In this document: positions 20,956 to 47,702 of the stretch, in pieces
How the letters are laid out: the number at the start of each line of letters is the position of its first letter
Position numbering within the stretch: position 1 is the first letter of the stretch
From: Terriglobia bacterium
Lineage (GTDB): Bacteria; Acidobacteriota; Terriglobia; UBA7540
Assembly (NCBI GenBank): GCA_035712365.1
Contig: DASTAW010000014.1
Coordinates: 1-47,822 of the forward strand
Length of the DNA stretch: 47,822 nucleotides
Direction of reading: 5' to 3'
Made by a program: the position numbers and the translations under genes
Notes under the pieces: generated by a model
What the model was told of the DNA's origin: nothing
The model's input: only the letters and a program-made list of their open reading frames with translations
Database searches by the model: none

Positions 20956-23358
20956 TCAGGGCAGACCAAAGCACAAGATGTTGGCACCGACTGTAAGCGC
21001 CACGTACTGTTTTCCGTTCACCGTGTAAGTCATGGGCGATGCCTTGTTCAACCCACTGGTTGGGAAGCGCCAAAGCGTCTTCCCGTTGCGGGCATCGGCA
21101 GCCACAACGTAGCCGCTCGGATCGCCATAAAAAAGAAGCCCGCCTGCGGTCGCCAGGATTCCCGAATCCTGCTCTTCCGCATCTGTGTCTGAGCCGGACC
21201 CGAACTGCTGGACCTCCCACGCTGTTTTCCCAGTGTCGATATCGATCGCGCGCAGATATTTCCTCGCCGGCTCTGCCTTGAGGTTTTCGGTGTTCCGGCG
21301 GCGGGACGAGAGCCTCACCGTACACGCATCCAGCGCCATCACATAATACAGGCGGGTGAGGGGACTGAAAGCCTTGGCGTTCCAGTTGGTTCCAATTCTC
21401 GGGCAGACCGGGCCGCTTTCGGGCAAAAGCTGGGGACGCCCGTCCGCGCCGATGCCGCTCGCCCATGTCACTCGCGCAAACGGGCTAGCGAGCAGAACTT
21501 GGCCATTCGTCCGGTCGAGCACGTAAAAAAAACCATTCTTGTTCGTGTAAAGCAAAAGCTTACGAGGCTGCCCCTGATAATGGGTATTGACCAGCACCAG
21601 CGGCGCGGTGGCGTCCCAGTCATGAACGTCGTGTGGCGTGACCTGGTAATACCACTTCAGTTTTCCAGTCTCCGGCTCCATAGCCAGGATGCAGTTGGTG
21701 TAAAGGTTATCGCCCGGCCGGATGCCTCCATTCGAGTCCGGGTAAGGATTGCCGGTGGTCCAGTAGAGCGTGTCGGTTTCGGGATCATAGGAGCCGGTTA
21801 GCCAAGTGGCGCCGCCTCCCACGTTTTTCGGCAGATTCCCGCCCCAAGTCTTCACCTCAGGATCGCCGTCGTCTGGAATGGCCCGGCGCCTCCAAACGAG
21901 TTGGCCATTCGAGGCTTTATAGGCGGCCACGAATCCGCGCACGCCGGGCCAGTCGCCGCCGGAAACACCAGCGATCACCATGTCCTTGACGATCAACGGC
22001 GCCACGGTTGAGCCATAGTTGGTGAGCTCTCCGGGCGGCATGACCACGTCCCAAACGGGCTTTCCCGTGGTGCGGTTCAAGGCGATCAGATGCGCATTCT
22101 GCGTCACCTTGAGAACCTTGTCGCCGAGAATGGCCACGCCGCGATTGGTGCCAAGCGCCGCGTCTCCCACGTTCAACTCCGGCGGGCGCGGACGCCGGTA
22201 GTCCCAGATTTGCTGTCCGGTGCGGGCGTCGAGCGCGAAGGCCTGGTGCGGGCCCGTTGCGTACATGATTCCATCCGCAACGATTGGCGTGGTCTCCACG
22301 CCAAAATGCTCCATTTTGCTGCGGAAATAAGCCGTGTCAGGAGGAAGCTGCTTCCACAGCGGTACCGTAAAGATCCACTTCAGGCGCAACTGGTTGATGT
22401 TTGATGGGTTGATCTGCGCAAGCTCGCTGTATCGGTTCCCGCTCAGATTGCCGTTGTAAGTCAGCCAGTCGCCCGGCCGGGGATGGAGAATTCGGGAGAA
22501 AGGAACGTCGCCCTCGCCCGAGGGCCCGCTGCCCATGGCCGCCGTGCCCGGCTTTACACCGGCGAGGCCGCTGAGAAAGGCGACGAGGTCCTGGAGTTGC
22601 TCAGCGCTTGCTTTGGCCGGAGGCATCTGGGATTCGTGGCTTTCGCTGAGGGCTGAAATCTCGTCCATCGGCAGCAGGTGGAACTGCCCCTTCAGGTCCT
22701 GCACAACGATCTCAAAATTGCTGCGGCTCCGCGCAAAACCGCTCAAGGTGGCTCCGTCGCGCAGGCGCGCCGTCACCATCTGATAGCCGGGAGCAATATG
22801 CTCGCTCGGTTGCAGCAGGCTCGACCGAATCTCCTCAGTGGTCATCTCGCCGCCAGCATCAGACAGATCGGGCCCCACGGCTGATCCCTTGCCGTAAACC
22901 ATGTGGCAAGAGGCGCATTGTCCCGCGCCGAAGAAATACTCTTCCCCGGCCGCGCGATCGCCGCGAACGCTGTTTTCAGCAGCCGGCGAATTCAACGAGT
23001 GGACCAGCGCGGCAAGCGCGTCCAATTCGCCGGCCGGCAGGGTGTTGAACGCCGGCATGCCTCCGGTGGGAATTCCGTCGTGAATTGTGCGACGCAACCA
23101 GGAAATTGAGCGTCCTTGCAGCCTGCGGTTGGCTGCCAGGGGAGGCCCATACTCGCCGCCCCGCGCGTCCACCCCGTGGCAGCCGGAGCACTGCGTTGCG
23201 TAGATGTCGCTGCCTGGCGTCTTTGACTGGCTGGCAGGCGTTTGGCCCCTTAGCATCGCCAGGCTAAAGGCTACGGCCACGAGCGCCGGGCCAGCCGCCC
23301 GCCGGAGTCGTGATTTGCGGATCCGTTTGCGCACCGTTGAACAGAACCTCGTTGACAA
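20956..23358 (-). CDS. PQQ-dependent dehydrogenase with N-terminal diheme cytochrome c region
   Basis: The 800-residue protein has a signal-like N-terminus (AGPALVAVAFSLAMLRGQ) after a basic stretch. Two c-heme sites follow: CSGCH (about residue 58) and CASCH (about 152), in the style of a cytochrome c domain and a heme-bearing extension (GPDLSDAG). From about 290 an eight-bladed quinoprotein propeller begins (GDWLTYNGNLSGNRYSELAQINPSNI, with repeated TGKxVW/TGQxIWDY strands). Such enzymes oxidise alcohols or sugars in the periplasm and pass electrons to c hemes. Hemes at the N-terminus, not the C-terminus as in type II alcohol dehydrogenases, are less usual. Start is TTG 23358 or GTG 23334. 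It heads the exported-enzyme cluster. Confidence 0.85.
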   Translation of the reverse strand: MSTRFCSTVRKRIRKSRLRRAAGPALVAVAFSLAMLRGQTPASQSKTPGSDIYATQCSGCHGVDARGGEYGPPLAANRRLQGRSISWLRRTIHDGIPTGGMPAFNTLPAGELDALAALVHSLNSPAAENSVRGDRAAGEEYFFGAGQCASCHMVYGKGSAVGPDLSDAGGEMTTEEIRSSLLQPSEHIAPGYQMVTARLRDGATLSGFARSRSNFEIVVQDLKGQFHLLPMDEISALSESHESQMPPAKASAEQLQDLVAFLSGLAGVKPGTAAMGSGPSGEGDVPFSRILHPRPGDWLTYNGNLSGNRYSELAQINPSNINQLRLKWIFTVPLWKQLPPDTAYFRSKMEHFGVETTPIVADGIMYATGPHQAFALDARTGQQIWDYRRPRPPELNVGDAALGTNRGVAILGDKVLKVTQNAHLIALNRTTGKPVWDVVMPPGELTNYGSTVAPLIVKDMVIAGVSGGDWPGVRGFVAAYKASNGQLVWRRRAIPDDGDPEVKTWGGNLPKNVGGGATWLTGSYDPETDTLYWTTGNPYPDSNGGIRPGDNLYTNCILAMEPETGKLKWYYQVTPHDVHDWDATAPLVLVNTHYQGQPRKLLLYTNKNGFFYVLDRTNGQVLLASPFARVTWASGIGADGRPQLLPESGPVCPRIGTNWNAKAFSPLTRLYYVMALDACTVRLSSRRRNTENLKAEPARKYLRAIDIDTGKTAWEVQQFGSGSDTDAEEQDSGILATAGGLLFYGDPSGYVVAADARNGKTLWRFPTSGLNKASPMTYTVNGKQYVALTVGANILCFGLP

Positions 23359-24950: not shown

Positions 24951-25043
24951 ATGCGTGGCAGGGACAGTGAAGCCCAGTTGCGGCCGCCTGAATTCGAACA
25001 GGCGAACCCAGCGAACTTTTCTGGAGCGAAGGGAAAGAAGATT

Positions 25044-28000
25044 TTGAAAAGGAACACGGTCGTCTGCCTCCTGACATCCATCTTCATCGGGCTCGCGACC
25101 TGGTCATCGAGCCATGGCCAGGAGAAGGCCCAGGTCCGTTTGCAGCCCGCCGCGGGCCTTCAGGCCAGGCAAGCCGTTTCGTATGGCCGCCTTCCCCTCA
25201 GCTTTGAGGTCAACAGAGGCCAGGTAAGCCCGCAGGCCCGATACCTCGCTCGCGGCCAGGGGTTTACGCTTTTTCTTACTCAGGCCGATGCCATTCTGCA
25301 ATTCACGAAATTCATGCCAGACAATCCAGCAGTCGGGGCGACGGCTTCAGGGTTTAAGAACGATCAGGCGGAAGCGGCATCGCCGGGGACAGCCGACGTG
25401 CTTCGCCTGAAACTGCTGGGGGCAAACCATCGGGCCAGGATTACGGCCTCGGAGCGGCTTCCGGGGAACACCAGCTACTTCCTTGGAAACGACCCTGGGA
25501 AGTGGGTTACCAATGTCCCCAACTACGCCCGCGTCCGCTATCGCCAGATTTATCCCGGTATTGATCTCGCCTACTATGGCCGCCAGGGACAGCTAGAAAA
25601 CGATTTCATACTAGCCCCGGGATCTGACCCAAAGCTGGTCCGGCTGGCTGTGGAAGGCGCCAGGAAGGTGCGCTTCAACGCCTCCGGGGACCTGGTGCTC
25701 ACGGTGAGCGACGGGGAAGTTTATTTTCGGCGGCCTCGTGCCTATCAGGGCAACGGAGCCAATCGCCGGGAGGTTGCAGTGCGCTACGCGCTCCAGGCGG
25801 AGAACAGCGTTGGATTTGCCGTTGGCCCCTACAATCACCACGAGGAACTTGTCATTGACCCTGTACTGTCATATTCGACCTATCTCGGAGGAAGTGGCGG
25901 GGATGATGGGCTCGGGATCGCAGTTGATGCCGCGGGAGACGCCTTTGTAACAGGCACGACGGCGTCGGTCAATTTCCCCAAGACGGGCGGACAGGCTAAC
26001 CTCGGCGGAGGCAAGGACATCTTTGTGGCCAAGCTCAATCCCTCGGGGTCCGCTTTTCTGTATTCGGTATTTCTCGGCGGAGGTAACCTGGACCGGGCAA
26101 CCAGCATTGCGATTGATTCCTCGGGGAATGCCTATTTGGCCGGTTACACCACGTCCACCGATTTCCCGACCACTTCGGGGGCCTACAAGACAAGCAATGC
26201 CGGAAGCACGGATGCTTTCGTTACCAAGCTGGACCCAACGGGCGCCAGCCTGGTTTACTCGACTTATCTCGGCGGCGGCGGCATCGATTACGGGCGAGGA
26301 ATAGCCGTGGATGCCTCGGGCGACGCGTTTATCACCGGTTCGACTCAATCAACAAATTTTCCCACGGTGAATCCGCTCCAGGTGGGAAATGACGGCGGCT
26401 CGGACGCCTTTGTCGCGGAGTTCGATCCGACCGGCGCCTCCCTGCTCTACTCGACATACCTCGGCGGGAGCGGCGCGGATGAGGCGCTGGCCATTGCGCT
26501 GGACGGTTCGGGGAACGCCTATGTGGCTGGCTACACATTCTCTTTAAACACTTTCCCTACGCAAAACGCCTTGCAATCCTCCCTGTCGGGGGCCTCGGAC
26601 GCTTTTGTGACTGAGATCAATCCCGCGACCTCCTCGCTGGTGTTCTCAACCTATCTGGGCGGAAGCGCGGACGAAAGCGCTCAATCCATTGCCATCGATT
26701 CGGCTGGCAGCATCTACGTGACCGGCAAAACTTCGTCGAGCAGTTTCCCGGTGACCAACGGGGCGTCTCAGGCGGCTTATGGCGGGGGAACGGATGCCTT
26801 TGTCACCAAGCTCGCCCCCGGCGGAACGCAGATGGTCTACTCGACCTTCCTGGGCGGCAGCGGTTTGGACCAGGGGAATTCAATAGCTCTCGACTCGTCG
26901 GGGGACGCCTTCATCACCGGCTTTACGCAGTCAAGCGACTTGCCTTTGACCAACGCCCTGCAACGGGTCCTGGGCGTTTCCGGAGCCAGTTCGTGCGGCA
27001 CGACTCCCTGCGCGGACGCCTTTATCACGGAACTCGGTCCCTCCGGCAATGTAGTCTTTTCCACCTTCCTTGGAGGAAGCGCCACGGACCTTGGGCAAGC
27101 CATCGCAACCGACCCTTCAGGGGCAGCCTACCTGACCGGCAGCACGAGTTCTACCAACTTTCCCGTCATTGCAGGAGCGCCCCAGTCAACTTATACGGGA
27201 ACAAATCAAAGCAACAACGTCTTCATCGCCAAAGTCAGCCCTCAGGATGCACCGGCCGCAGCCCTCAGCCCCCAGACCCTGAACTTTGGCAACCAGGTGA
27301 TCCTCCACGCCAGCAGCCCGCAGACGGTGACGCTGGTCAACGCCGGGAGCGCGCCGCTGGGCATCACCAGCATTTCAGCCACCGGCCAGTTCACCCAGAC
27401 CAATGATTGCGGGTCCGTTGTTCCAGCCGGCGGCGGAACGTGCTCAATTCAGGTGACCTTCACGCCCACTCAAACGGGCTCCGTAACAGACCAGATCACC
27501 ATCACGGACAATGCTGCCGGAAGCCCTCAGGCCATTACGGTCACCGGGGGCGGTGTCACATCCGCGGGCACCCTGTCGATCACCCCAACGTCTCTTACCT
27601 TTGCTGCGCAGACGGTGGGGCAGGCCAGCCCTGCACAGACCGTCCAACTGACCAACACGGGCAATACAGCCATCAACATCAGCAACATCACGACCAGCGG
27701 AGACTTTGCGCAAACCAATTCCTGCGGGACCCTGCCCACCGTGCTCAACGTGGGCGCCACGTGCAGCATCAGTGTCACCTTTACCCCGGCATCCACGGGA
27801 AGCCGCACAGGATCGCTGACCATCGACGACGATGCCAACAACAACCCGCAGGGAGTGTCGCTGACCGGGACCGGCAACGCGGTGTTTACGCTCTCTTCCA
27901 ATGTGAGGTCAAGCGTGGTGCTGATAGGGACAAAGTCGGCCACGTTCACGGTCACCGCTGCGGCCCCCAGCACCTTCCAGGGCGCGATCAACCTCGCTTG

Positions 28001-28760
28001 CACGACTGGGACATGCGCCTTTAATCCTACGTCCATCTATGCGGGGCAGTCGAGCACGGTCACTGTCAGCGGCTTGTCGGCAACCACGGCGAACCCCTTT
28101 GATTTTTCGGTTAAGGGTACCAGCAGCGGCCAGGACACAACCGTGGCCTTGACCGTCTTCCTTGCGGACTTCACGCTGTCGCAAACGCCGCCTTCGCCGG
28201 CGCTTCGCACGGTGACTGCCGGCGATGCCACAACCTATACGGTTACTGTGACGCCGATCAACGGGTTCAACCAGGTGGTGCTGCTCGGCTGCGCGAACCT
28301 GCCGCCGCAAACTACCTGCACCTATTCTCCGCCGGGCCTGACCCTGGGCGGGTCAAGCCCGGTTACTGCGACTGTGACCGTCCAGACGACCGCTGAGACG
28401 CCCACCCAGGTCGCGCCGCGGCCGCCGGGAGGGACGCCCCCGTGGGGACCCGTGAATTTCCGCTGGTGGAGTTGTGTTCTGGCACTCTTTATGATTTTTG
28501 CTGCTGCCTTTGCCCTGGGCAGGCGCCGCCGGTCGGGCCAAACACCAGCAAGGCTTTGGGCCGGAGTTGCCGTGCTTGCCATGGCGGTATCGGTGGGTGC
28601 TCTCTCGACGGCCTGCAATGACACTTTTGTCGGCCCCAAGACAACTCCCGTGACAACGGGCACTCCGGCGAATACCTACAAGATTACCCTCGTGGGTACG
28701 CTGGGAAGCGATGGCAGTATTAAGAGAGCGGCGACGGTGAACCTGGCCGTCGCGCCTTGA
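25044..28760 (+). CDS. Giant surface protein with SBBP repeats and choice-of-anchor-D domains, copy 1
   Basis: TTG 25044, behind GAAGGGAAAGAAG, is the preferred start; ATG 24951 abuts the previous stop and would bury the signal. The product (1238 residues) has a signal peptide (TVVCLLTSIFIGLATWSSSHGQ), a conserved beta domain (LPLSFEVNRGQ..., about 35-270), nine or so SBBP beta-propeller-type repeats (YSTYLGGSGGDDGLGIAVDAAGDAFVTG pattern, about 290-740), two choice-of-anchor-D immunoglobulin-like domains (LNFGNQV..., LTFAAQTVG...), a further Ig-like part, then two membrane helices separated by GRRRRSG and a short tail. Exposure on the surface is likely; the role (adhesion, matrix) is inferred. 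Confidence 0.82.
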   Translation: MKRNTVVCLLTSIFIGLATWSSSHGQEKAQVRLQPAAGLQARQAVSYGRLPLSFEVNRGQVSPQARYLARGQGFTLFLTQADAILQFTKFMPDNPAVGATASGFKNDQAEAASPGTADVLRLKLLGANHRARITASERLPGNTSYFLGNDPGKWVTNVPNYARVRYRQIYPGIDLAYYGRQGQLENDFILAPGSDPKLVRLAVEGARKVRFNASGDLVLTVSDGEVYFRRPRAYQGNGANRREVAVRYALQAENSVGFAVGPYNHHEELVIDPVLSYSTYLGGSGGDDGLGIAVDAAGDAFVTGTTASVNFPKTGGQANLGGGKDIFVAKLNPSGSAFLYSVFLGGGNLDRATSIAIDSSGNAYLAGYTTSTDFPTTSGAYKTSNAGSTDAFVTKLDPTGASLVYSTYLGGGGIDYGRGIAVDASGDAFITGSTQSTNFPTVNPLQVGNDGGSDAFVAEFDPTGASLLYSTYLGGSGADEALAIALDGSGNAYVAGYTFSLNTFPTQNALQSSLSGASDAFVTEINPATSSLVFSTYLGGSADESAQSIAIDSAGSIYVTGKTSSSSFPVTNGASQAAYGGGTDAFVTKLAPGGTQMVYSTFLGGSGLDQGNSIALDSSGDAFITGFTQSSDLPLTNALQRVLGVSGASSCGTTPCADAFITELGPSGNVVFSTFLGGSATDLGQAIATDPSGAAYLTGSTSSTNFPVIAGAPQSTYTGTNQSNNVFIAKVSPQDAPAAALSPQTLNFGNQVILHASSPQTVTLVNAGSAPLGITSISATGQFTQTNDCGSVVPAGGGTCSIQVTFTPTQTGSVTDQITITDNAAGSPQAITVTGGGVTSAGTLSITPTSLTFAAQTVGQASPAQTVQLTNTGNTAINISNITTSGDFAQTNSCGTLPTVLNVGATCSISVTFTPASTGSRTGSLTIDDDANNNPQGVSLTGTGNAVFTLSSNVRSSVVLIGTKSATFTVTAAAPSTFQGAINLACTTGTCAFNPTSIYAGQSSTVTVSGLSATTANPFDFSVKGTSSGQDTTVALTVFLADFTLSQTPPSPALRTVTAGDATTYTVTVTPINGFNQVVLLGCANLPPQTTCTYSPPGLTLGGSSPVTATVTVQTTAETPTQVAPRPPGGTPPWGPVNFRWWSCVLALFMIFAAAFALGRRRRSGQTPARLWAGVAVLAMAVSVGALSTACNDTFVGPKTTPVTTGTPANTYKITLVGTLGSDGSIKRAATVNLAVAP

Positions 28761-28847: not shown

Positions 28848-31800
28848 ATGTTCAAGGAGAACAGTGTGAAATCGAAATGTTCTACCGGGAGGGGGCCCAG
28901 CAAAGCCCGATGGGCAGTTCTTCGGGGGCGGCGCCTTGCGGGGCTCAGCATCTTTGGCCTCGCACTCATCGGCCTGGGTCTGGCGCTGAGCAAGACGCAG
29001 GGACCTTCTCCTCGCGATGCCCGCAATCCGAAAGCCTGGAGCAGCCGCTACGCCCAGCTTCCACTCAGCTTTGAGGCCAACCACGGGCAGACCGACTCGC
29101 GGGTTAAGTTCCTTGCGCGTGGGCAGAACTACACGTTGTTTCTGACCGGGCATGAGGCCGTACTCTCCCTAAGCTCTGGGAAATCCGGCCGCGCGGCAAA
29201 ACACCCTGCCTCCTCCGCGGTCGTGCGCTTCCGGCTGTTGGGCTCCGCGCCTGCCGCGCCTGTTACCGGCCAGGACTTGCTGCCGGGGACCAGTAACTAC
29301 TTCCTGGGGAACGATCCTAGCCGATGGCACACCGGGATTCCCAATTATGCAAGCGTCCGGTACCACCAGGTGTATCCCGGCATCGATCTTGTTTATCACG
29401 GCAACGAGGGGCAACTGGAAAACGATTTCGTGGTGTCCGCGGGTTCGGACCCCAACCTGGTCCGCATCGGGCTCGCGGGTGTAGACGGCTTGCGCCTGGA
29501 CCGCTCCGGAAATCTCGCCCTGAAGGTCGATGGAGGAGAGGTCCAACTCCGGAAACCGCGCGCCTATCAGGGAAAGAATGAGGTGCCGGTTAGTTACGTG
29601 CTGAGGGCCGGCAACGAGGTCGGGCTGAGGCTTGGGGCCTATGACCATCGCCAGCAACTGGTGATTGACCCGGTCCTTGCCTATTCCACCTACTTCGGAG
29701 GCAGCGGCGGCGATATTGGATACGGCATTGCCGTCGATTCCGCTGGCGACGCGTATATCACTGGAATTTCAAACTCTGCCAATTTCCCCACTTCGACAGG
29801 CTCGCAGAGCGGAGCTTTTGGGGGCGGTGGCGACGCTTTCGTCGTGAAACTGAACCCGGTCGGAACAGCATCCAGCTCATCATCCACGCCGCAGCGCGTG
29901 TACTCGACGTTTCTGGGCGGGAGCGGGACAGACTCCGGCAATGCCATCGCGGTTGACGCCGGCGGCGATGCCTATGTCACCGGAAGCACAAATTCTTCGG
30001 ACTTTACAACCACCACCGGAGCATTTCAGACGGTTCCCGGAGGCGGCAGCGACGCTTTCGTGGCCGAGTTGAACAGCACGGGCGCCGGACTGGTTTATTC
30101 CTCTTACCTGGGCGGCTCCGGGGACGACGCCGGCCAGGGCATCGCAGTCGATTCCTCAAATAATGCCTACGTTACAGGCTCCACGCAGTCGCCAAATTTC
30201 CCCACCTTGAATCCTTTGCCAGCACACAACACGAATGCGGGATCCTCAGACGCCTTCATTGCCAAAGTGAACTTTACCGGCACCGCCCTCCTGTATTCCA
30301 CTTACCTGGGTGGGGCGAAGGCGGATGTCGGCCAGAGCATCAAGGTTGATGGTTCCGGGAACGCTTACGTGGCAGGATACACATTCTCCAACGATTTCCC
30401 GATCCAGGGGCCTGTGCAAGGCTCCAACCTCGGAACGGTGAACGCGTTTGTTACCGAACTGAACTCGGCCGGTTCGGCGATCACTTTTTCCACCTACCTG
30501 GGAGGAAGCGGAGACGACCGCGCCTTCGGGCTGGCGTTGGACTCAAGTGGAAACATCTATATCGCCGGCGGGGCGCAATCAAATAACTTTCCCACCACCG
30601 TTGGCGTGTTTCAGGGAGCCAACCACGGACAATCTGACGCTTTCGTCGCAAAGATCAATCCCGCGGGGCCAACCCTTGTCTACTCCACGCTGCTCGGGGG
30701 TTCGGGCGTCGACCAGGCCAATGGCATCGCCGTGGACTCTTCCGGGGATGCTTTTATAACAGGTTTTACAAACTCGAGCCCGACCGACTTTCCACTTTTT
30801 AGCCCCATCCAGAGCACCCTGGGAATTTCCGGAGGCAGTTCTTGCGGCGCCTCCGCCTGCTCCGACGCCTTTGTCTCGGAGCTGAACCCCGCGGCTACCG
30901 CGTTGATCGAGTCAACCTACCTGGGAGGGAGTGGCGCTGATTTTGGCCAGGCGATTGCCCTCGGCCCCACGGGCATCCCTTACATCACCGGAACCACTGC
31001 CTCTACCAACTTCCCCGCGAGCGCGGGAGCGTTTCAGGCCAGCCTGACGGGCGTTGCCGGCAATGCCTTCGTCGCCGAGATTAAGCCCGACAACGCCGCG
31101 GGCATTTCGGTTGTGCCTCAGTTGGTCGACTTCGGGAACCAGACTTTGAACGTCCGCAGCGCCATCAAAACCGTCGCCGTCACCAACGAAGGCACTGCGC
31201 CCCTGAATATCACCCAGATCACCTTTACCGAAACGGACACGGGCGGCACCACCGATTTCGCCGAGACGGACAATTGCGTTGGGACCGTGGCCGCGAGCGG
31301 CGGCGCCTGCAACATCAACATCACGTTCACTCCGGGTTCAGCGGCTGCCAAGACCGGGACCTTCAGCATAACCGACAGCGCGGCAGGAAGCCCGCATACC
31401 ATCAGCGTTAAAGGCGCCGGCGTCAGTTCGGCGACCGCGGTCACCGTGACCCCTTCGAGCCTTTCTTTCGGCAACGTGACCGTGGGCGCTGTCAGTACCG
31501 CTCAGAGCGTGACGATTACAAATACGGGTACGCAAACCCTGACTTTCACCGGCATCAGTGCCGGTGGTGATTTCTCATCGACGAACACTTGCACCACCAA
31601 CGTCCTGAATGTTGGCCAAAGCTGCACGGCCAGCGTCACCTTTTCCCCCACCGTGTCCGGCGCCCGGGGTGGCAGTCTGTCCATCAGCGACAACGCGGCA
31701 GGGAGCCCTCAATCCGTGGTGCTTTCGGGAACGGGCGTCGCGCAGTTTACGATGTCTTCGCCGTCGCCAAACGTCACCACCCTCATCGGAAGCGGCTCTA

Positions 31801-32576
31801 CGACATTCACCGTCGCGGCCGCAGGACCCAGCAGCTTTACCGGAAGCATTACTCTCGCCTGCCCGGGCGGCCTGTCATGTTCCTTCAATCCGGCAAATAT
31901 TTTTGCGGGGCAAACCAGCACTCTGACGGTCAGCGGACTCACGGCCTCGATGGCCAATCCCTTCGTTTTTGCCGTGACCGGCACCAGCGGATCGCAGGCC
32001 GCCGCGGTCAATCTGAACCTGCTGTTTGCTGATTATGCGCTCTCAGCCTCACCGGCGCTCAACACCATCGTCGCGGGATCTGCGGCAACCTACACCATTG
32101 CGGTGAACCCCATCAACGGGTTCAACAGTCAGGTGCAGCTTGCCTGCGGAAACGGCATGCCTCCTGGGGCAACCTGTACCTTCTCACACTCCTCGGTGAC
32201 TCCAAGCGGCGGAGCTGCCACAGTCACACTGAGTTTGCAGACCACCAAGAATGCCGGCGTTCCACCGCCACCGGCTGTTCCGCCGGGCATGGTCCCGCCC
32301 CTGATGGTGTTCCTCCTCGTGGTTGTCCTGGCGGGACTGGTTGTCTTGCGCCGCCGCCGCAATCGCTTCCCGCGTCTGGCTGGAAGGCGGTGGGTGCTGG
32401 TTCAGGTCTCGACGCTCTGCCTGCTGATTGTGTGCGAGACCTTCCTGGTGTCCTGCCGGAGTACTCCGACGGCCACCGGATCGACAACCGGAAATTACAT
32501 CATCACCATCAATGGCACGCTTGGCTCCAACTCGGCTGTTGTCAGGACCGCGACGATCGACCTGTCCGTGACGTAG
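28848..32576 (+). CDS. Giant surface protein with SBBP repeats and choice-of-anchor-D domains, copy 2
   Basis: The 1242-residue paralogue repeats the layout of the preceding gene: signal-anchor (AGLSIFGLALIGLGLALS), LPLSFEANHGQTDS domain, SBBP repeats with the YSTYLGGSGxD...AVDSxGxAYxTG pattern, anchor-D domains (VDFGNQTLN, LSFGNVTVGAV), cysteine-bearing Ig-like domain, then helix, VLRRRRNR, helix with LVSC, and a TGNYIITINGTLGS tail. Similarity extends through the whole length, so the pair arose by tandem duplication. Start ATG 28848 follows GGGGAGA. Pairs of Cys in matching positions (SCGA.AC; DNC..AC) suggest disulfides and export. Confidence 0.84.
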   Translation: MFKENSVKSKCSTGRGPSKARWAVLRGRRLAGLSIFGLALIGLGLALSKTQGPSPRDARNPKAWSSRYAQLPLSFEANHGQTDSRVKFLARGQNYTLFLTGHEAVLSLSSGKSGRAAKHPASSAVVRFRLLGSAPAAPVTGQDLLPGTSNYFLGNDPSRWHTGIPNYASVRYHQVYPGIDLVYHGNEGQLENDFVVSAGSDPNLVRIGLAGVDGLRLDRSGNLALKVDGGEVQLRKPRAYQGKNEVPVSYVLRAGNEVGLRLGAYDHRQQLVIDPVLAYSTYFGGSGGDIGYGIAVDSAGDAYITGISNSANFPTSTGSQSGAFGGGGDAFVVKLNPVGTASSSSSTPQRVYSTFLGGSGTDSGNAIAVDAGGDAYVTGSTNSSDFTTTTGAFQTVPGGGSDAFVAELNSTGAGLVYSSYLGGSGDDAGQGIAVDSSNNAYVTGSTQSPNFPTLNPLPAHNTNAGSSDAFIAKVNFTGTALLYSTYLGGAKADVGQSIKVDGSGNAYVAGYTFSNDFPIQGPVQGSNLGTVNAFVTELNSAGSAITFSTYLGGSGDDRAFGLALDSSGNIYIAGGAQSNNFPTTVGVFQGANHGQSDAFVAKINPAGPTLVYSTLLGGSGVDQANGIAVDSSGDAFITGFTNSSPTDFPLFSPIQSTLGISGGSSCGASACSDAFVSELNPAATALIESTYLGGSGADFGQAIALGPTGIPYITGTTASTNFPASAGAFQASLTGVAGNAFVAEIKPDNAAGISVVPQLVDFGNQTLNVRSAIKTVAVTNEGTAPLNITQITFTETDTGGTTDFAETDNCVGTVAASGGACNINITFTPGSAAAKTGTFSITDSAAGSPHTISVKGAGVSSATAVTVTPSSLSFGNVTVGAVSTAQSVTITNTGTQTLTFTGISAGGDFSSTNTCTTNVLNVGQSCTASVTFSPTVSGARGGSLSISDNAAGSPQSVVLSGTGVAQFTMSSPSPNVTTLIGSGSTTFTVAAAGPSSFTGSITLACPGGLSCSFNPANIFAGQTSTLTVSGLTASMANPFVFAVTGTSGSQAAAVNLNLLFADYALSASPALNTIVAGSAATYTIAVNPINGFNSQVQLACGNGMPPGATCTFSHSSVTPSGGAATVTLSLQTTKNAGVPPPPAVPPGMVPPLMVFLLVVVLAGLVVLRRRRNRFPRLAGRRWVLVQVSTLCLLIVCETFLVSCRSTPTATGSTTGNYIITINGTLGSNSAVVRTATIDLSVT

Positions 32577-39292: not shown

Positions 39293-39332
39293 AGCGACAG
39301 ACTGTCGGGTCTCAGTATTGGAAGCTTGCGAG

Positions 39333-41420
39333 ATGCCGCGCGCCATCGATAACTCCGCGACTGTAAACCTGAACAAGAATCCGGTGGTGTCGCTTGTGCT
39401 TGTCCTCTTCCTGTGTGTTCCTTCGCTCTCGGCGCAGGATAAGCCCCGCGATGCGCTCGTAGAGTGGATGAACCGAATTGCCCAGCAGCAACTCCAGCAG
39501 CGAGCGGAATTAATCCGCGGGATCCGCACGAAAGCGCAGGCGGAGAGCCGAAAACGGTGGGTGCGCAAGCAGATGCTGGACGACATGGGCGGCCTGCCCG
39601 ATTACCGCGGTCCGTTGAACGCGAGGTTTACCGGCCAGCTTCGTAACAATTCTTACACCGTCGAAAAGGTGATCTACCAGAGTCTGCCGGGTCTTTACGT
39701 CACGGCCAATGTCTACCGGCCGAACCAGCCGGGCCGTTATCCTGCCGTGCTGCTGCAGGCCGGCCACACGCAGGAGGGGAAACCGGAAGACCAGCGGATG
39801 GCCGCGAACCTGGCGATGAAGGGCTTTGTGGCTTTGTGTTTCGATCCCATCGGGCAGGGCGAACGCGAGCAAACGTACAGCCCACAGCTCGACGCGCCGC
39901 TCGCCGGCTGGTCTGTTCCTGAGCACATCCAGATGGGCGCGCAAGCGCAATTGATTGGCGAGGGTTTGGCCCGATACTTCATCTTTGACGCGATGCGGTC
40001 GCTCGACTATCTTTCCAGCCGGCCTGATGTGGACGCCTCGCGCCTCGGCGCCGCAGGCTGCTCGGGCGGCGGCGCGTTGACCACGTTCCTCGGCGGCCTC
40101 GACCCGCGGGTCAAAGTGGTGATTCCGGCCTGCTATCCCAGTTCTTTTCAGACGTTGTTTGCCACCTCGGGTCCTGACGTGGAAATGGTGTTGCCGCGCT
40201 TTCTCGCGAGCGGCCTGGACACCGCCGATTTCGTGGAGCTCCCCGCACCAACGCCGTGGCTGCTGCAATCAACCGAACATGATGAATACCACTTCAGCCA
40301 CCAGGGCGTGCGGCTGGTCTATGATGAGGCCCGAAACTGGTACGCGCTTTACGGCGGGCAGGACAAGGTTGGATTTACGGTGGGGCAGGGACCGCACGGC
40401 ATGCCGCTCGAGGCGCGGGAAGCCGTCTACCAGTGGATGATTCGCTACCTCAAGAACGGGCAGGGTGATTTCCACGAACAGCCGGTCGAAATGTATACCA
40501 ACCATCAGCTTCAGGTAACGGCCAGCGGCAACGTTGAGAATGAGCCGGGCAGCCGGAAGCTCTACCAAGTGCTTCGCGCTGAATTTAAGGCGCGCAAACG
40601 TGCCGGAACCGCGGCTGAGTTGCTGGCGAAGCTGCGCGAACTCAAGATTCCCACCGATCGCTCCGCGCCAAAAATCCAAATTCTCGATCAATCGAGTGAT
40701 GCCGCCGGTCAAAAGGAGCGCATCAAATTTGAGAGCGTGCCAGGCATCTGGCTCCGCGCCACTTTGCGCATCCCTTCGTCTCCCGGAAAAAAGCCCGCCG
40801 TATTGGTGCTCAGCGGCGGCAACATGTTTGGCCTGATGCCGACGGCCACCATCGCGGAACACATGGCCAAAGCCGGCCGCGTGGTGCTCGAGATGGAGCC
40901 ACGTCGATCACAGATGGAAATCCACGAGGGGCCGTTTGCCGGAGATTATGTCGCCGACGTGCAGGCCAACCTGATCGGCCTCGATCTGCCGGCCATGCGC
41001 GCGCACGACATTCTGCGCGGCGTTGATCTATTGGCGGCGCGCTCGGATGTCGGTCCCGGTTCGATTCGCGCCGCCGCCCGCGGCGTAAGCGGCATCTGGC
41101 TGCTGCTCGCCGCCGCCGCCGATCCGCGCATCGGCAAAATCTGGATTGACCGGACGCCTTCGAGTCTGCGCTCGGCGCTCGACAACACCATGGCCGCCGA
41201 CCTTTGGGACGCGGTCATCCCCGGTTTTATTCTCCATTGGGACCTGAACGATCTCGTAACCGCCATGGGGAAACGGCAGGTGATGTGGACCGACCCCACC
41301 AACTGGCTCCGCCGCGTCGTCCCGCTTGGCGCGGGCTACGAGTATCGGTACGTTCTCGGCGACACCACCGACCTGGCCCAGGCGCAGGACGACGCCTACA
41401 TCCGCGAGCTTTTGCAGTAG
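39333..41420 (+). CDS. Exported two-domain alpha/beta hydrolase (acetyl-xylan-esterase-like)
   Basis: Starting at ATG 39333, the 695-residue product has a signal peptide (PVVSLVLVLFLCVPSLSAQ). The first hydrolase domain (about 60-370) shows PAVLLQAGHTQEGK near the oxyanion hole, FDPIGQGER, and the nucleophile elbow GAAGCSGGGA; the acid and base lie further on (EHDEYHFS, GPHGMPLEAR). A second, diverged alpha/beta hydrolase domain fills about 450-690 (PAVLVLSGGNMFG..., GVSGIWLL in place of GxSxG), so it may be inactive or structural. Relatives deacetylate plant polysaccharides. The neighbour on the other strand is a GH18 lipoprotein, which fits polysaccharide use. Confidence 0.78.
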   Translation: MPRAIDNSATVNLNKNPVVSLVLVLFLCVPSLSAQDKPRDALVEWMNRIAQQQLQQRAELIRGIRTKAQAESRKRWVRKQMLDDMGGLPDYRGPLNARFTGQLRNNSYTVEKVIYQSLPGLYVTANVYRPNQPGRYPAVLLQAGHTQEGKPEDQRMAANLAMKGFVALCFDPIGQGEREQTYSPQLDAPLAGWSVPEHIQMGAQAQLIGEGLARYFIFDAMRSLDYLSSRPDVDASRLGAAGCSGGGALTTFLGGLDPRVKVVIPACYPSSFQTLFATSGPDVEMVLPRFLASGLDTADFVELPAPTPWLLQSTEHDEYHFSHQGVRLVYDEARNWYALYGGQDKVGFTVGQGPHGMPLEAREAVYQWMIRYLKNGQGDFHEQPVEMYTNHQLQVTASGNVENEPGSRKLYQVLRAEFKARKRAGTAAELLAKLRELKIPTDRSAPKIQILDQSSDAAGQKERIKFESVPGIWLRATLRIPSSPGKKPAVLVLSGGNMFGLMPTATIAEHMAKAGRVVLEMEPRRSQMEIHEGPFAGDYVADVQANLIGLDLPAMRAHDILRGVDLLAARSDVGPGSIRAAARGVSGIWLLLAAAADPRIGKIWIDRTPSSLRSALDNTMAADLWDAVIPGFILHWDLNDLVTAMGKRQVMWTDPTNWLRRVVPLGAGYEYRYVLGDTTDLAQAQDDAYIRELLQ

Positions 41421-41487
41421 CCAAATATGCCGGTCAGTGATCGATGAGACGAGATTCAATTTGCCCGCGGCGATCGAGCGTCATTTC

Positions 41488-43962
41488 TTAATACCCGATG
41501 TTGTGGCACTGGCCGCAGGAAACCGTGGCTTTGCGCAGATTGTGGCAATTGACGCAGCTCATCATGGAGACGTCTTTCGCCTGCCGCATGGCGTCCATGC
41601 CGCGCACCACGCCGTGGCACACCGCGCAGTCCACTTTGGCGTCAAGGTGTTTCTGATGGCTGAAGAAAACGAAGTCCGGCAGGTGATAGACGCGCACCCA
41701 CGGAATGCTGCCTCCCGCCTTTTGCAGGCTGGCGAGCTTCTGGATGGCCGGACGCTCCGTGGCTATCCCTTGGTGGCAACCCATGCAGTAGTTCGCATTG
41801 GGAATCTGCATCTGCTTGCCGTCTTGTGCCAGCCGGTGGCAACTCTCGCACGGGAGACCGGCGTTTGAATGCGCCTTGTGGCTGAAGGGAATGGGCTGCA
41901 CCGGCGCCGCAGGCTGCGGCATGATGTCAACCGGTTCGCTTCCCACGCCTCCCGGGACCACTCCCAGCTCAACCGGTAGCCGTGTCTGGGGTTGCAGCTT
42001 TGCCTGCGCCGGGCTGGTTTGGCCTTTGGGAAAAAGCGTATAGGCCGCAACCACGGTGGGAGCCGACGCGCCGGTGCTGAAGCGCGAACTCGGCCCGACC
42101 GCCAGCACCACAAACTGCTTCCCGGTTTTCTTTCCCATATACGTCAGCGGCGTTGCGTAGCCGTTGGCTTCAAGTTTGCTCACCCACAGTTGTTTCCCGT
42201 TCTGCGCGTCAAACGCTCTGAAGCGGCGGTCGGCTGTGGCGGCGATGAACACCACGCCGCCGGCGGTGACAATCGAGCCGCCCAGGTTGTAGATGCCAGT
42301 TTGGGGAACGCCCTTGGCCGCGAGAGCATCCACAACTCCCAGCGTCACGCTCCAGGCAATCTTACCGGTGTTCAAGTTGACGGCGTTCATGGTTCCCCAG
42401 GGCGGCTGCTGGCAGGGATAATGGTTGTCATCTTCAAAGCGCGCGTAGGAGCCCCATTTGCTGGTCCGCTCATACGCTTCAGGAGAGCCTGCGGGCTGCT
42501 TCTTCATCATCCCCACCGAGCCCAGGTTCGTCGCATTGGCGTACATGTAGCCTGTCGAGGGATCGAACGAAACGCCGCCCCAGTCGGTGCCTCCCATGGT
42601 TCCCGGAATAATCACCGTAGTATCGAGGCCCCAGGGATTGAAAATTCGCCCCGGGAGGGCCGACCCGAAATTTTCCATGCAGTATTTGCGCGACTCAGGC
42701 GTGACGCTCGTGATGTCATCGCGCGTCACCAGGATTTTCGCCAGCGGCGGGATGGCCGTCGGAAACGGCTGCGTGGGCGAGGTGGCTTCGCCGGGCACTT
42801 TGCTTTGCGGCACGCTGCGTTCTTCAATCGGGTAGAGCGGCTTGCCGGTCAGCCGGTTGAACACAAAAACGAGTCCCGTTTTGCCCACCACAACGACGGC
42901 GGGAACCTGCTTGCCATCGCGATGAATGGCAACCAGCGACGGCTGCGAGCCCACGTCCATGTCCCAGATGTCGTGATGAACAAGCTGATGGTACCAGGCC
43001 AGTTTTCCGGTGTCCGCCTTCACCGCCACCAGCGAATTCCCGTAAAGCGTGTTTCCCTTCCGGTCAGCGCCGTAAAAATCATACGAAGGCGAGCCGACGG
43101 GCAGGAAGACAAGTCCGTTCTCAATGTCAACGCTCAAGGGCGGCCACGCGTTCACGCCCGAGCGGTCCTTCCAACTGTCTCCCTGCCAGGTGTCGTGCCC
43201 CGGTTCGCCGGGCTGCGGAATGGTGTTGAACGTCCACGCCAGCTTGCCGGTGTGCACGTTGAAGGCGCGCACCGCTCCGCTGTTGCCCTTTGACGGAAAC
43301 TCCTGCAACTCCGACCCCGTGATAATCAGGTCCTTGTAAATCACCGGCGGCGACGTCAGGTCATATTGGCGCTCCGGATATTTCGTCGCCACGCCGTCTC
43401 GAAGATTGATCGAACCAGACTGGCCAAACTCTTTGCAGGGTTTGCCGGTGGCCGGGTCCAGCGCGAACAGGCGGTCGTCAGGAGTGGCGTAGAAAATCCG
43501 GCGGTCATCGCCGTCGCGGCGGCCGTCGCAGGTTTCGGAAGATTTCCCTTTCCAGTAAGCCATGCCGCGATTGGGCAGCGGACGCACCTTGCCGCTGGCG
43601 GCCCCGTAAGGATTAAACGTCCAGAGCTGCTTGCCCGTTTCGGCATCGAGCGAGATGGCCATTCCCGTCTGGGTGGCGAAATAGAGCGCGCCGTCCACCA
43701 TCAGCGGCGTGCTCTCAAAAGCCTGCAGCCAACTGTTCGGCGTGGTGGGGACCTCGTAGGTCCAAGTTCGCTCGAGGCGCTGCACGTTCGCGCGATTGAT
43801 CTGGCGGAGCGGCGAATACCGCCTCGCTCCCGGATCATGCCCCGCCACCGGCCACCCCTGCCCCGCGCCGCCCGCCGCCTGCTGCCCAATCGCCAGCCCA
43901 CACCCCATCAGCACAGTGATGGGGAGGTAAATTGTCAGCCCTCGTCGCTTGTTAAATCTCAT
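41488..43962 (-). CDS. PQQ-dependent dehydrogenase fused to a C-terminal pentaheme cytochrome c
   Basis: From ATG 43962 (right after GGGAGGA) the product has 824 residues with a signal peptide (GLTIYLPITVLMGCGLAIGQQ). Residues about 35-650 form a quinoprotein propeller (GWPVAGHDPGARRYSPLRQINRANVQRL; repeated TGKLAW, TGKQLWTF blades; WGGVSFDPSTGYMYAN). From about 700 come five CxxCH heme sites: CESCH, CMGCH, CAVCH, CVNCH and CGQCH, with FSHKAH and FSHQKHL supplying distal His ligands as in cytochrome c7/c3-type proteins. The fusion would carry electrons from the oxidised substrate through a heme wire to a partner. It is convergent with the hydrolase gene. Confidence 0.85.
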   Translation of the reverse strand: MRFNKRRGLTIYLPITVLMGCGLAIGQQAAGGAGQGWPVAGHDPGARRYSPLRQINRANVQRLERTWTYEVPTTPNSWLQAFESTPLMVDGALYFATQTGMAISLDAETGKQLWTFNPYGAASGKVRPLPNRGMAYWKGKSSETCDGRRDGDDRRIFYATPDDRLFALDPATGKPCKEFGQSGSINLRDGVATKYPERQYDLTSPPVIYKDLIITGSELQEFPSKGNSGAVRAFNVHTGKLAWTFNTIPQPGEPGHDTWQGDSWKDRSGVNAWPPLSVDIENGLVFLPVGSPSYDFYGADRKGNTLYGNSLVAVKADTGKLAWYHQLVHHDIWDMDVGSQPSLVAIHRDGKQVPAVVVVGKTGLVFVFNRLTGKPLYPIEERSVPQSKVPGEATSPTQPFPTAIPPLAKILVTRDDITSVTPESRKYCMENFGSALPGRIFNPWGLDTTVIIPGTMGGTDWGGVSFDPSTGYMYANATNLGSVGMMKKQPAGSPEAYERTSKWGSYARFEDDNHYPCQQPPWGTMNAVNLNTGKIAWSVTLGVVDALAAKGVPQTGIYNLGGSIVTAGGVVFIAATADRRFRAFDAQNGKQLWVSKLEANGYATPLTYMGKKTGKQFVVLAVGPSSRFSTGASAPTVVAAYTLFPKGQTSPAQAKLQPQTRLPVELGVVPGGVGSEPVDIMPQPAAPVQPIPFSHKAHSNAGLPCESCHRLAQDGKQMQIPNANYCMGCHQGIATERPAIQKLASLQKAGGSIPWVRVYHLPDFVFFSHQKHLDAKVDCAVCHGVVRGMDAMRQAKDVSMMSCVNCHNLRKATVSCGQCHNIGY

Positions 43963-44037
43963 TCCTCCCTCAATGTTCAATCCACCATACACTAACCACT
44001 CATCACTAACCACTGCTTTTATGCTATGGTTTGCCGC

Positions 44038-44160
44038 AAAGTAGCACAGCCGCTCCTGGCTGTGGGCGTGGGATAAACACGAAACGTAGCACAGCCACTC
44101 CTGGCTGTGGGATGTTAGGATCGAATAAAGACACAGGCAAGAGTGCCTGTACTACGGCTA
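44038..44160. repeat. REP cluster upstream of the RAYT gene
   Basis: Three hairpins lie in line: CACAGCC-GCTCCT-GGCTGTG (44045-44064), CACAGCC-ACTCCT-GGCTGTG (44090-44109) and ACAGGCA-AGAG-TGCCTGT (44133-44150). The same three, in the same order and orientation, recur after the transposase gene at 44793-44911. Confidence 0.75.
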
Positions 44161-44173
44161 CGGATATAGCGCA

Positions 44174-44800
44174 ATGACTTTCTATCGCCGCAACCTTCCA
44201 CACTGGCATCCTGAAGGTAAAGCTATTTTTCTGACTTGGAGGCTGTTTGGGTCACTGCCCAGGTCAATCCAGGCCGCCGGCAGAATTGCAAGCGCGGGTG
44301 TCACCAAGTCTCGTGTTATCCAGACCACCGGCAGGAGTGCCGGTGCCACGAGCGCCGGTGCCACAAAGGGTGGCATCACTGAAGCAGGGAAAAGGTTTCG
44401 CCGGTGGGACGCTGAGCTTGACAAGGGCCTTGTCGGTCCGGTCTGGCTCCGGGACGCCAGGATTGCCCGGTACGTCGAGCTGGCCATCCATCGCGGCGAG
44501 CAGTTGGGGCATTACAAACCCTACGCTTATGTGGTCATGCCGAACCACGTTCATGCGCTCCTTGTCCCGCTTGTTCCGCTGGCCCGCATCACCAGGGGAA
44601 TCAAAGGCGTCTCCGCGCGTGACGCAAACGCGGTGCTCGGACACCAGGGCCAGCCCTTCTGGCAGAACGAATCCTTTGATCATTAGGTACGAGACGACAG
44701 CGAATTTGAGCGGGTTCGAGCCTATATCGAATGGAACCCTGTTGCAGCCGGACTGGCCGCAAAGCCTGAAGAGTGGCAGTGGTCGAGCGCCAGAAAGTAG
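44174..44800 (+). pseudogene. REP-associated tyrosine transposase (RAYT, IS200-like Y1 family) interrupted by an in-frame stop
   Basis: The frame opens with TFYRRNLPHWHPEGKAIFLTWRL and carries the HUH motif VVMPNHVHALL (about residues 120-130). At 44684-44686 a TAG occupies the place where relatives have Trp (DHW-VRD); the same frame then goes on for 37 codons with the proper family end: EFERVRAYIEWNPVAAGLAAKPEEWQWSSA. The catalytic Tyr (AYIEWNPV) is therefore beyond the stop, so the 170-residue product should be inactive unless read through. Residues about 36-70 are an insertion made largely of a REP hairpin sequence. The gene is flanked by matching REP clusters. Confidence 0.82.
44326..44345. 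repeat. REP hairpin embedded in the RAYT coding sequence
   Basis: CACCGGCA-GGAG-TGCCGGTG is a perfect 8-bp stem of the same build as the flanking CACAGGCA-AGAG-TGCCTGTG repeats, followed at once by a partial second unit (GCGCCGGTGCCAC). It keeps the reading frame open. Confidence 0.65.
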
Positions 44801-44911
44801 CACAGCCGCTCCTGGCTGTGAGCGTGGGATGGATGAACACAGAAAGTAGCACAGCCACTCCTGGCTGTGAGGATGGGATAAAGACACAGGCAAGAGTGCC
44901 TGTGCCACGGA
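44793..44911. repeat. REP cluster downstream of the RAYT gene
   Basis: Direct repeat of the upstream cluster: two CACAGCC/GGCTGTG hairpins and one CACAGGCA-AGAG-TGCCTGTG hairpin. The stop of the transposase frame (44798-44800) lies in its first bases, so the transposase tail and the REP overlap. Confidence 0.75.
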
Positions 44912-45508
44912 TAAGGTGAGGCAGGTTTCTCATCTTTCCGGCCCATCACTCATCACTTACCATTCTTCACAGCTTTTTGACCGGCTGAGGGATCTTTTCA
45001 CGCCTTTCCACTAATCACCAACCACTATCCACTATCCGCTGCTTCTTCGCTTGCATCTGTGCCACCTCCGGGTGTATATAGGCGTGTCGCGACCGCTCGC
45101 CGTGGCTCCAGGATGGCCGGGCTTCAATCTTCATTGCCGCCGGCTCTTTGTTCTGGAATCTTAAATCTTGAATTTGAAATCCCACGGAGGGTGGCCGCGC
45201 ATCGCGATCGGGGAGAGGTGTTTTCAGGAGGGCCGTGCTTCAGCTCGACCATAACGCGCTGTGCCGCAAATTTAGCCAGCTCTCTCCGAACGGAGAGGGT
45301 GTCGCGCAGAGCCGCGACGGGTGATCGAGCATTTTCGTAGCGGCGACTTTACGTCGCCATCGTGGCAGGCTAAACCCGCCGCTACAAGGCGACAAGTGCT
45401 CACGCCTCTGCCCGCCCTCGAAGCCAAGGCAGGAATGAAAGACGAGTATCAGAGCAAGAGTAAGTGATTGATCGCCGCGCTGGCTGGGCCGGATGAGGAG
45501 GTGCAGGT
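44912..45508. other. Gene-free stretch with repeat remnants
   Basis: About 600 bases without a credible gene. They contain GTAGCGGCGAC...CCCGCCGCTAC (45337-45385), a second copy of the repeat at 39220, and near 45271-45325 a fragment like the GGAGAGGG repeats found at 46.9-47.2 kb. Runs of ATCACTAACCACT-type sequence at 44946-45035 are low in complexity. Confidence 0.5.
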
Positions 45509-46863: not shown

Positions 46864-47190
46864 CACCCCTCACCTGCCGTCGTACCTCCGGCACCCTCTC
46901 CCCTTGGAGAGGGCCTTAATTTCTACGAGGGAGTCGTACCTCCGCCACCCTCTCCCCGGGGTAGAGGGCTTTCATTTTTTGGAGGGAGTGACCCCTCACC
47001 CGTCACGCCAGGTCGTGACACCCTCTCCCCAGGGTAGAGGGCCTTGTTTCTTTTGGGCGGGTCGCTTTTCCGAGTCGCTGCGGTTACAATGCCGGCGTCA
47101 GCCAATGGATATTTGAAGGCTGAGCCCTCTCCGAGGGGAGAGGGTGCCCCGTCCCGCCTTGCGGGACCGGGGCGGGTGAGGGGTCATTTC
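46864..47190. repeat. Cluster of CCCCTCACC...CCCTCTCCC dispersed repeats
   Basis: At least four related units occur: CACCCTCTCCCCTTGGAGAGGG, CACCCTCTCCCCGGGGTAGAGGG, CACCCTCTCCCCAGGGTAGAGGG-like, and a reverse one, CCCTCTCCGAGGGGAGAGGG. Each can fold into a short hairpin. Another copy follows the DUF559 gene at 47563-47611. The region codes for nothing recognisable. Confidence 0.65.
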
Positions 47191-47194
47191 AACC

Positions 47195-47563
47195 GTGCGA
47201 ATCAGCACCCAGCGCGTTCGCGAATTGCGGCACGCGCAGACAGAAGCCGAAAGGCACGCCTGGCATCTGCTGCGTGACCGGCGGCTGGGCCTGAAATTCA
47301 GGCGGCAGCATCCCATCGAGAATTACGTTGTCGATTTTTACTGCTGCGAACTCCGCGTGGCCGTGGAACTCGACGGAGGCGTCCACTCGCAGCCCAGCCG
47401 GATGAGAAAGGACGCGGCGAAGGATGCGTACCTTGGAAAGCTTGGTGTGCGCGTGCTCCGGCTGCCGAATGGGTTGGTGACCGAGGACCCGGAAAGATTT
47501 GTCCGTAAAGTGCGCGAAGCGGCGGCAGAGAGGGTGCGGGATAAAGACCGCCGAAGTAAGTGA
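47195..47563 (+). CDS. DUF559 protein (very-short-patch-repair-like PD-(D/E)XK endonuclease fold)
   Basis: The 122-residue product starts at GTG 47195. It has the family landmarks: RELRHAQTEAERHAWHLLRDRRLG, KFRRQHPIENYVVDFYC (with the catalytic-type Asp), LRVAVELDGGVH (Glu-x-Asp-Gly-Gly-x-His) and LGVRVLRLPN. Relatives resemble Vsr endonucleases and often lie alone among repeats; the cellular role is not settled. It is flanked on both sides by copies of the CCCTCTCCC repeat, which could mean that it moves or spreads with them; this is inference. Confidence 0.85.
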   Translation: MRISTQRVRELRHAQTEAERHAWHLLRDRRLGLKFRRQHPIENYVVDFYCCELRVAVELDGGVHSQPSRMRKDAAKDAYLGKLGVRVLRLPNGLVTEDPERFVRKVREAAAERVRDKDRRSK

Positions 47564-47702
47564 CCCCTCACCCGCCGTCGTAGCTCCGGCACCCTTTCCC
47601 CAAGGGAGAGGGCATTGCATTTTGGGGGGAACGGGTAGATTCTCTCTTGAATTTCAAGGGTATTTTTTCTTTTGAAGGTGAAGGAATCTTTTCTTTTTTG
47701 CA

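Follow-up and report, generated by a model that had tools for sequence, protein, structure and literature searches.

A PQQ-type dehydrogenase fused to an ActA/QrcA-type pentaheme cytochrome in a Terriglobia bacterium

The window, the whole stretch of DNA analysed here, comprises 47,822 nucleotides of a contig (DASTAW010000014.1) from a Terriglobia bacterium. An open frame on its reverse strand, running from 43962 to 41488, encodes 824 amino acids followed by a stop, and both a PQQ propeller and a heme part lie within this one reading frame. The features at the locus and the residues discussed below are listed here, with the basis of each assignment in brackets.

41488..43962, minus strand: fused gene for a PQQ-type dehydrogenase and an ActA/QrcA-type pentaheme cytochrome (single ORF, Pfam, same ORF in relatives)
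43882..43962, minus strand: N-terminal Sec-type signal region with Cys at residue 21 (LMGC), a candidate lipobox (sequence)
42109..43854, minus strand: PQQ eight-bladed propeller, residues 37-618 (PF01011, Gcd alignment, AlphaFold2, Foldseek, VIA-align)
Propeller residues: putative catalytic Asp D334, plus D336, K361, W273, N271, E221 and N476 (Gcd alignment)
41908..42042, minus strand: Pro/Gly-rich linker, residues 641-685 (alignment of fused proteins, low pLDDT)
41491..41907, minus strand: pentaheme domain, residues 686-824 (Pfam, NCBIfam, PDB matches, ligand alignment)
Five CxxCH motifs: residues 705-709, 726-730, 779-783, 803-807 and 816-820 (sequence)
Two HxxH segments: H695/H698 and H769/H772 (sequence)
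Conserved extra ligand residues: H695, H698, H769, H772 and M800 (alignment)
39318..41420, plus strand: convergent neighbour, an AXE1/DLH-type esterase (Pfam)
41421..41487, no strand: apparent site of two lost Amidohydro_2 genes, about 1.75 kb in G002 (synteny with G002, L210 7660-9408)

At the place of the lipobox, [AG]C[GS] was found in six of the nine intact fused proteins that were aligned (window, G002, G022, G033, G017, G006) and was absent from G365, G105 and G352. A possible SPase I end lies after the Cys at this place. The fused protein is predicted to be secreted or periplasmic, perhaps lipid-anchored.

Linkage to ActB or ActC was absent; downstream of the fused gene lies the esterase and then a GH18-type gene (Pfam). 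A counterpart of the esterase adjoins the fused gene region in four relatives, confirmed as AXE1/DLH by Pfam in G002 and G022 and assigned by BLAST grouping only in G017 and G061. By BLAST grouping, two Amidohydro_2 genes follow the fused gene in G002, G017 and G061, with the esterase beyond them, and two amidohydrolases precede the fused gene in G022; Pfam confirmed PF04909 for 6 of these 8 genes, the other two being assigned by the grouping. The synteny alignment with G002 breaks off at window position 41468 and continues from 41403; about 1.75 kb of G002 has no counterpart in between, and the first bases of the first lost amidohydrolase gene remain in the window. When one of these amidohydrolases was used to search the bacterium's genome, with no positive control, nothing was found. 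The alignment indicates that both genes are deleted in this genome. The esterase and amidohydrolase neighbours offer a lead, in that they would suit a pathway in which a sugar is oxidised to a lactone and the lactone is then hydrolysed, but PF04909 is a broad family.

Elsewhere in the window, the spaces between genes contain interspersed repeats of 29-54 bp that belong to several families (44033-44916 and 46865-47633), with similar stretches matching repeatedly in G002. On the plus strand, two tandem genes encode large proteins with DUF7948, SBBP beta-propeller and ASH/Ig domains (24951-28760 and 28848-32576).

Recurrence of the fusion and its origins

A reading made earlier from the sequence alone had placed a full propeller and five CxxCH motifs in one protein, and this was confirmed: PF01011 matched residues 37-618 over its whole profile (positions 1-595 of 595, E 4.3e-199, 663.5 bits versus a cut-off of 26.7), and the five motifs follow in the same 824-residue frame. 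By its sequence, the protein is a quinohemoprotein, with a PQQ propeller and c-type heme sites in one chain.

When databases were searched for the architecture, the same fusion was found in further genomes of the class. A single frame with five CxxCH motifs was present in G002, G022, G033, G017 and G006, plus G365, G105 and G352, the G002 homologue being 86% identical to the window protein. Fused-length frames were found in 7 of the 39 genomes of the family (matches at 1e-25 or better), and the class sample of 399 genomes, 95 of which had a match at 1e-36 or better, yielded fused frames in 12. Nine of these 12 are intact, two are cut by contig ends (G061, G085) and one has a broken frame (G323). 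In the phylum sample, which overlaps in genomes with the class sample, the only fused frame among the 17 of 396 genomes with a match was that of the window's own genome. Both parts also occur at four named loci, all of them from Acidobacteria MAGs.

The sequence-only reading had also raised the possibility that the heme part is a separate gene joined to the propeller by error. The own genome (98.9% complete, 65 contigs) does hold two unfused pairs of a PQQ dehydrogenase and a pentaheme gene, on C19 and C30, in which the second frame starts 7 and 12 bases past the first, a layout that an assembly or sequencing error might join. However, the same single frame with five CxxCH motifs recurs in the eight relatives named above, which excludes chance or a joined-gene error, and the linker is under constraint: dN/dS against G002 was 0.147 overall, with 0.133 for the propeller, 0.110 for the linker and 0.140 for the tail. 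The probability left to such an error is negligible. Values against G022 (0.098), G033 (0.126) and G017 (0.117) were similarly low, dS being near saturation in these three comparisons. Both the propeller and the heme part are under purifying selection.

The fusions did not form a single group on the propeller tree, which was built from 45 rows once 13 loci had been set aside because their sequences were long, cut, distant or unlabelled. Ten fusions, here called the core, and two propellers cut by contig ends made one group (support 100), while G105 and G352 fell outside it among two-gene copies and other PQQ dehydrogenases. One of the core members by propeller, L221 8111-10139 in G009, consists of two frames, and its contig ends before any heme part. 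A grouping of all twelve fusions was rejected (AU p 3.6e-14), as was that of the core with G352 (AU p 3.5e-12), and the core with G105 stood at p 0.013, the p-values of these last two tests being less strict because they were named after the tree had been seen. On the heme tree, G105 grouped with nine core rows (93/87) and G352 lay beside the C19 gene. The propeller tree rejects a single fusion origin; the heme domain, a short alignment of 138 columns with 11 fused rows, does not reject placing those rows in one group (p 0.362). From these trees, at least two joins to PQQ dehydrogenases are well supported and three separate joins are likely; a possible alternative is that fusions were split and later regained, or that tails were exchanged. 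Members of the core come from families f1, f6, f8 and f10, a spread that suggests transfer from one lineage to another. In general, repeated gene fusion is strong evidence that the two proteins involved work together.

The propeller and its supply of PQQ

The closest NCBIfam subfamily of the propeller was TIGR03074, which scored 508.6 of 832.65 bits and remained below its cut-off. The match starts at profile position 153 and the membrane part is missing, so the protein falls outside the glucose/quinate/shikimate dehydrogenases. The best folds found by Foldseek and VIA-align were quinoprotein alcohol dehydrogenases (1yiq: Z 36.2, 499 residues, rmsd 2.5), and the AlphaFold2 pLDDT was mostly 70-97 across the propeller. 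D334, K361 and W273, which we take to be the catalytic Asp, the PQQ-contacting Lys and the stacking Trp, are present in 16/16 aligned proteins, E. coli Gcd included, and equivalents of Gcd R266, W404, D466, D468, K493 and N607 are kept in the same 16. D336 lies two residues past the catalytic Asp, presumably the position that marks Ln-type enzymes; an equivalent is also present in E. coli Gcd and the lanthanide reading is therefore not pressed. In the alignment with Gcd, H262 is replaced by Pro and D354/N355 by Gln/Glu, so that the substrate and the metal may differ from those of Gcd.

The profile search of the own genome found neither PqqC nor PqqE over cut-off. Both passed in the same 4 of 61 relatives, and none of the six intact fusion carriers in the 61-genome set (G000, G002, G006, G017, G022, G033) passed for either. 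The PqqC model matched 0/14 controls, with the four passing genomes as its positive control; weaker matches exist below cut-off, including one at 61 of 240 bits in G002. The PqqE model gave matches below cut-off in 61/61 genomes and 14/14 controls, which were read as other radical SAM proteins. G009, the carrier of the cut core propeller, passes the cut-off for both PqqC and PqqE. A clear PqqU was not found in the own genome either, the best match to the E. coli PqqU query having an E of 3.2e-9 and 30% over residues 30-178. Given that neither PqqC nor PqqE exceeds its cut-off in the host, its PQQ must, judging by gene content, be scavenged, or else PQQ is unused by the fused protein. According to passages of PMC12124388, scavenging of PQQ without synthesis is common among bacteria, and diffusion has been suggested for its uptake in Acidobacteria that lack PqqU.

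The second of these options amounts to an "empty" quinoprotein, a cytochrome carrying a propeller that no longer uses PQQ and serves for binding or as a scaffold. The missing synthesis genes are in keeping with it, as is a match to TIGR04528, "acido-empty-quinoprotein group A", at 225.3 bits against a cut-off of 650. It nevertheless appears improbable, since 1) PF01011 and TIGR03074 match the propeller much better than TIGR04528, 2) the catalytic Asp, Lys and Trp are kept in every aligned protein and 3) imported PQQ is used by many bacteria that do not make it, according to the same passages of PMC12124388.

The pentaheme tail and its partners

Three cytochrome c3/c7 Pfam models exceeded their cut-offs between residues 686 and 821, among them PF14522 (cytochrome c7; 41.9 versus 24.8 bits), whose best stretch, 765-821, corresponds to the last three CxxCH motifs. 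The best NCBIfam match of the tail was QrcA, NF041781 (E 2.3e-20), at 72.9 of 180 bits, the equivalog cut-off not being reached. The best PDB matches were 8k9e, 6f0k, 6btm and 6lod (E 6e-27 to 4e-20), compared with 3.5e-7 for the best c7 protein. The table name of 6btm is alternative complex III, and 6f0k, 6lod and 8k9e are structures that we take to be of the same complex. A plain c3/c7 tail was accordingly rejected, because the ActA-type chains and QrcA match far better; "c7/c3-like", as the tail had been called, is imprecise, although PF14522 does exceed its cut-off.

The five CxxCH motifs together with H695, H698, H769, H772 and M800 are invariant in all 80 pentaheme rows among the matches listed, window included. 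These rows are distinct loci drawn from the best matches, at most 30 per search; duplicates and L217, which is cut after three CxxCH motifs, were dropped before the tree was built. The same ligand set was found in 5/5 ActB-linked rows among the matches listed, and each of the four ActA-type chains (8k9e, 6f0k, 6btm, 6lod) has an aligned Met three positions ahead of the fourth CxxCH. In the R. marinus ActA, as described in passages of PMC5928083, five hemes form a line of about 45 Å, all bis-His except for one His-Met heme, with potentials from -45 to +230 mV; the hemes of ActA-type chains form a wire (passages of PMC5928083 and PMC8552683). By analogy with the solved ActA, these conserved residues lead one to expect bis-His ligation for four hemes of the tail and His-Met ligation for the fifth.

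This result divides the earlier proposal of a low-potential, bis-His wire. Bis-His ligation would apply to four of the five hemes, the fifth distal ligand being most likely Met (M800, in 80/80 rows among the matches listed), so that the conserved distal ligands are four His and one Met and not five His. A low potential does not follow, given the range of the solved ActA hemes in those passages of PMC5928083. Wire-like transfer, in contrast, is supported by homology with the five-heme line of the same protein.

Structure prediction was much less certain for the tail than for the propeller: AlphaFold2 on the tail alone gave a pLDDT of 47.1 and a pTM of 0.29 (five-row alignment), and in the whole chain the heme blocks had a pLDDT of 23-39 (20 rows, the other 19 being without a pentaheme). 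The VIA-align rows span mainly residues 34-653, so that the missing heme-fold match there says nothing.

The same pentaheme also occurs as a separate gene. Among the matches listed, 11 of the 80 rows are part of a fusion; a PQQ dehydrogenase adjoins a further 21, a QrcB-like gene 16 and an ActB-like gene 5, and the remaining 27 are without these neighbours. Ten neighbour proteins from nine of these remaining loci comprised 5 GMC oxidoreductases, 2 amine-oxidase/FAD proteins, 1 FMN-dependent dehydrogenase and 2 with no match (Pfam). The partner labels of L184, L189, L199 and L201 were given by sequence resemblance, as was that of L186, which had no Pfam match. Pentaheme genes adjoin GMC, amine-oxidase-type or FMN dehydrogenases at L148, L174, L177, L179, L181, L187, L188 and L194, possibly as undescribed flavoprotein-pentaheme pairs. 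The partner labels cluster on the heme tree (15 changes versus a shuffled mean of 51.2, to which near-copies add). The ActB-linked pentaheme of the own genome, on C50, falls on a branch separate from the tail (100/100).

The range of neighbours suggests that the pentaheme may act as a plug-in electron collector beside PQQ, GMC-flavin, amine-oxidase-type and FMN dehydrogenases as well as CISM complexes. A wider proposal is offered only tentatively: the ActA/QrcA-type pentaheme of the phylum might be a general periplasmic collector, shared by or fused to soluble PQQ-, FAD- and FMN-dehydrogenases, whose electrons would skip the quinone pool and go straight into the cytochrome c/oxidase end of the ACIII chain; the ACIII subunit might itself be one recruit of this older module.

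Electron acceptor and comparison with known systems

The fused protein is probably a periplasmic quinohemoprotein whose propeller uses PQQ to oxidise a sugar or alcohol and whose tethered pentaheme conducts the electrons to a respiratory acceptor. PQQH2 would pass single electrons to the covalently tethered pentaheme domain, and the latter, if loaded with its four bis-His hemes and one His-Met heme in an ActA-like geometry, would store them and conduct them along a short wire. They would most likely be delivered to a c-type cytochrome or a caa3-type oxidase, at that end of the respiratory chain which the ACIII of the same bacterium would also feed. The ACIII cluster of the own genome includes a 4Fe-4S subunit, NrfD and a monoheme CBB3-type cytochrome, with COX2, bearing a cytochrome c domain, and COX1 adjoining it. 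No shared acceptor gene was found among the neighbour groups listed for 13 loci; the window was left out of this grouping, and its neighbours were compared with those of G002 through the synteny alignment.

An 800-residue quinohemoprotein with an N-terminal class I cytochrome c domain, a PQQ propeller and two CxxCH motifs is encoded elsewhere in the window (20956-23358, minus strand). In G006, G105, G009 and G022 (Pfam, 4/4 tested), and probably in G323, a quinohemoprotein with class I cytochrome c, PQQ propeller and two CxxCH motifs also lies close to the fused or core-type gene; the coordinates are L214 5597-8146, L216 2-2245, L221 5645-7969, L211 1251-3587 and L220 1130-2806. The cytochrome domain of such a neighbour is a possible electron partner of the fused protein.

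Two other destinations for the electrons were considered. Docking of the tail, in the manner of QrcA, on a Qrc-type CISM complex (C39) with reduction of menaquinone is unlikely. QrcA is indeed the best NCBIfam match to the heme part, albeit below cut-off, and the own genome has a Qrc-like cluster (QrcB model, 324 of 440 bits), but this cluster includes a pentaheme gene of its own, placed on a separate branch, and has no gene linkage to the fused gene, and transfer from PQQH2 to menaquinone is less favourable than transfer to cytochrome c. Somewhat less likely still is extracellular electron transfer, with a low-potential pentaheme wire leading to an outer-membrane conduit or to minerals and humics. 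The multiheme tail and the N-terminal export signal are compatible with it, and an outer-membrane or extracellular acceptor had been put forward in the sequence-only reading. That suggestion gained no positive evidence: a search for this conduit type found no MtrB/PioB homologue in the own genome, where ACIII and a caa3-type oxidase are present, the nearest kin of the tail are inner-membrane respiratory subunits, and the homologous ActA hemes lie at potentials (passages of PMC5928083) that argue against a low-potential wire. Delivery to the cytochrome c/oxidase end thus remains the favoured reading.

The ActA/QrcA-type heme subunit has, to our knowledge, been described only from quinone-linked membrane complexes, and the fusion suggests for it a role as a dehydrogenase partner. 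The earlier view that the architecture is new has held, in that open-licence PMC text yielded no description of such a fusion or of this pentaheme as a dehydrogenase partner; PQQ is not mentioned in PMC5900883. Each half is known; what appears new is that they are combined, that this combination recurs and that dehydrogenases of several types share the tail. As a single-chain system, the protein would allow electron entry, the heme wire and the choice of acceptor to be measured together. It would also bear on the oxidation of sugars or alcohols in bacteria that have numerous quinoproteins yet lack PQQ synthesis genes, and, as a naturally occurring enzyme with a long wire, it may be of use in electrodes for direct electron transfer.

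Among known systems, E. coli Gcd (TIGR03074) shares with the fused protein the HHDxWDxD catalytic segment and K493. The fused protein differs in lacking the membrane domain, in the changes at H262 and D354/N355 and in presumably passing its electrons to hemes instead of straight to ubiquinone. The quinohemoprotein alcohol dehydrogenases 1yiq, 1kv9, 1kb0 and 8gy2 are the best PDB matches of the propeller by sequence and fold. These enzymes likewise combine a PQQ propeller and a c-type heme part in one chain, but that chain has one class I heme and no ActA-type pentaheme. QrcA, although the best NCBIfam match to the tail, belongs to a CISM complex, the Qrc menaquinone reductase, and the tail scores far below its equivalog cut-off. 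ActA shares with the tail the two HxxH...CxxCH...CxxCH halves and the Met before the fourth CxxCH, with five hemes in the R. marinus protein. In the fused protein, however, this unit is C-terminal to a PQQ propeller and has no ActB partner, its fourth and fifth CxxCH motifs start 13 residues apart and, as a further difference, the R. marinus ActA has a transmembrane anchor (passages of PMC5928083).
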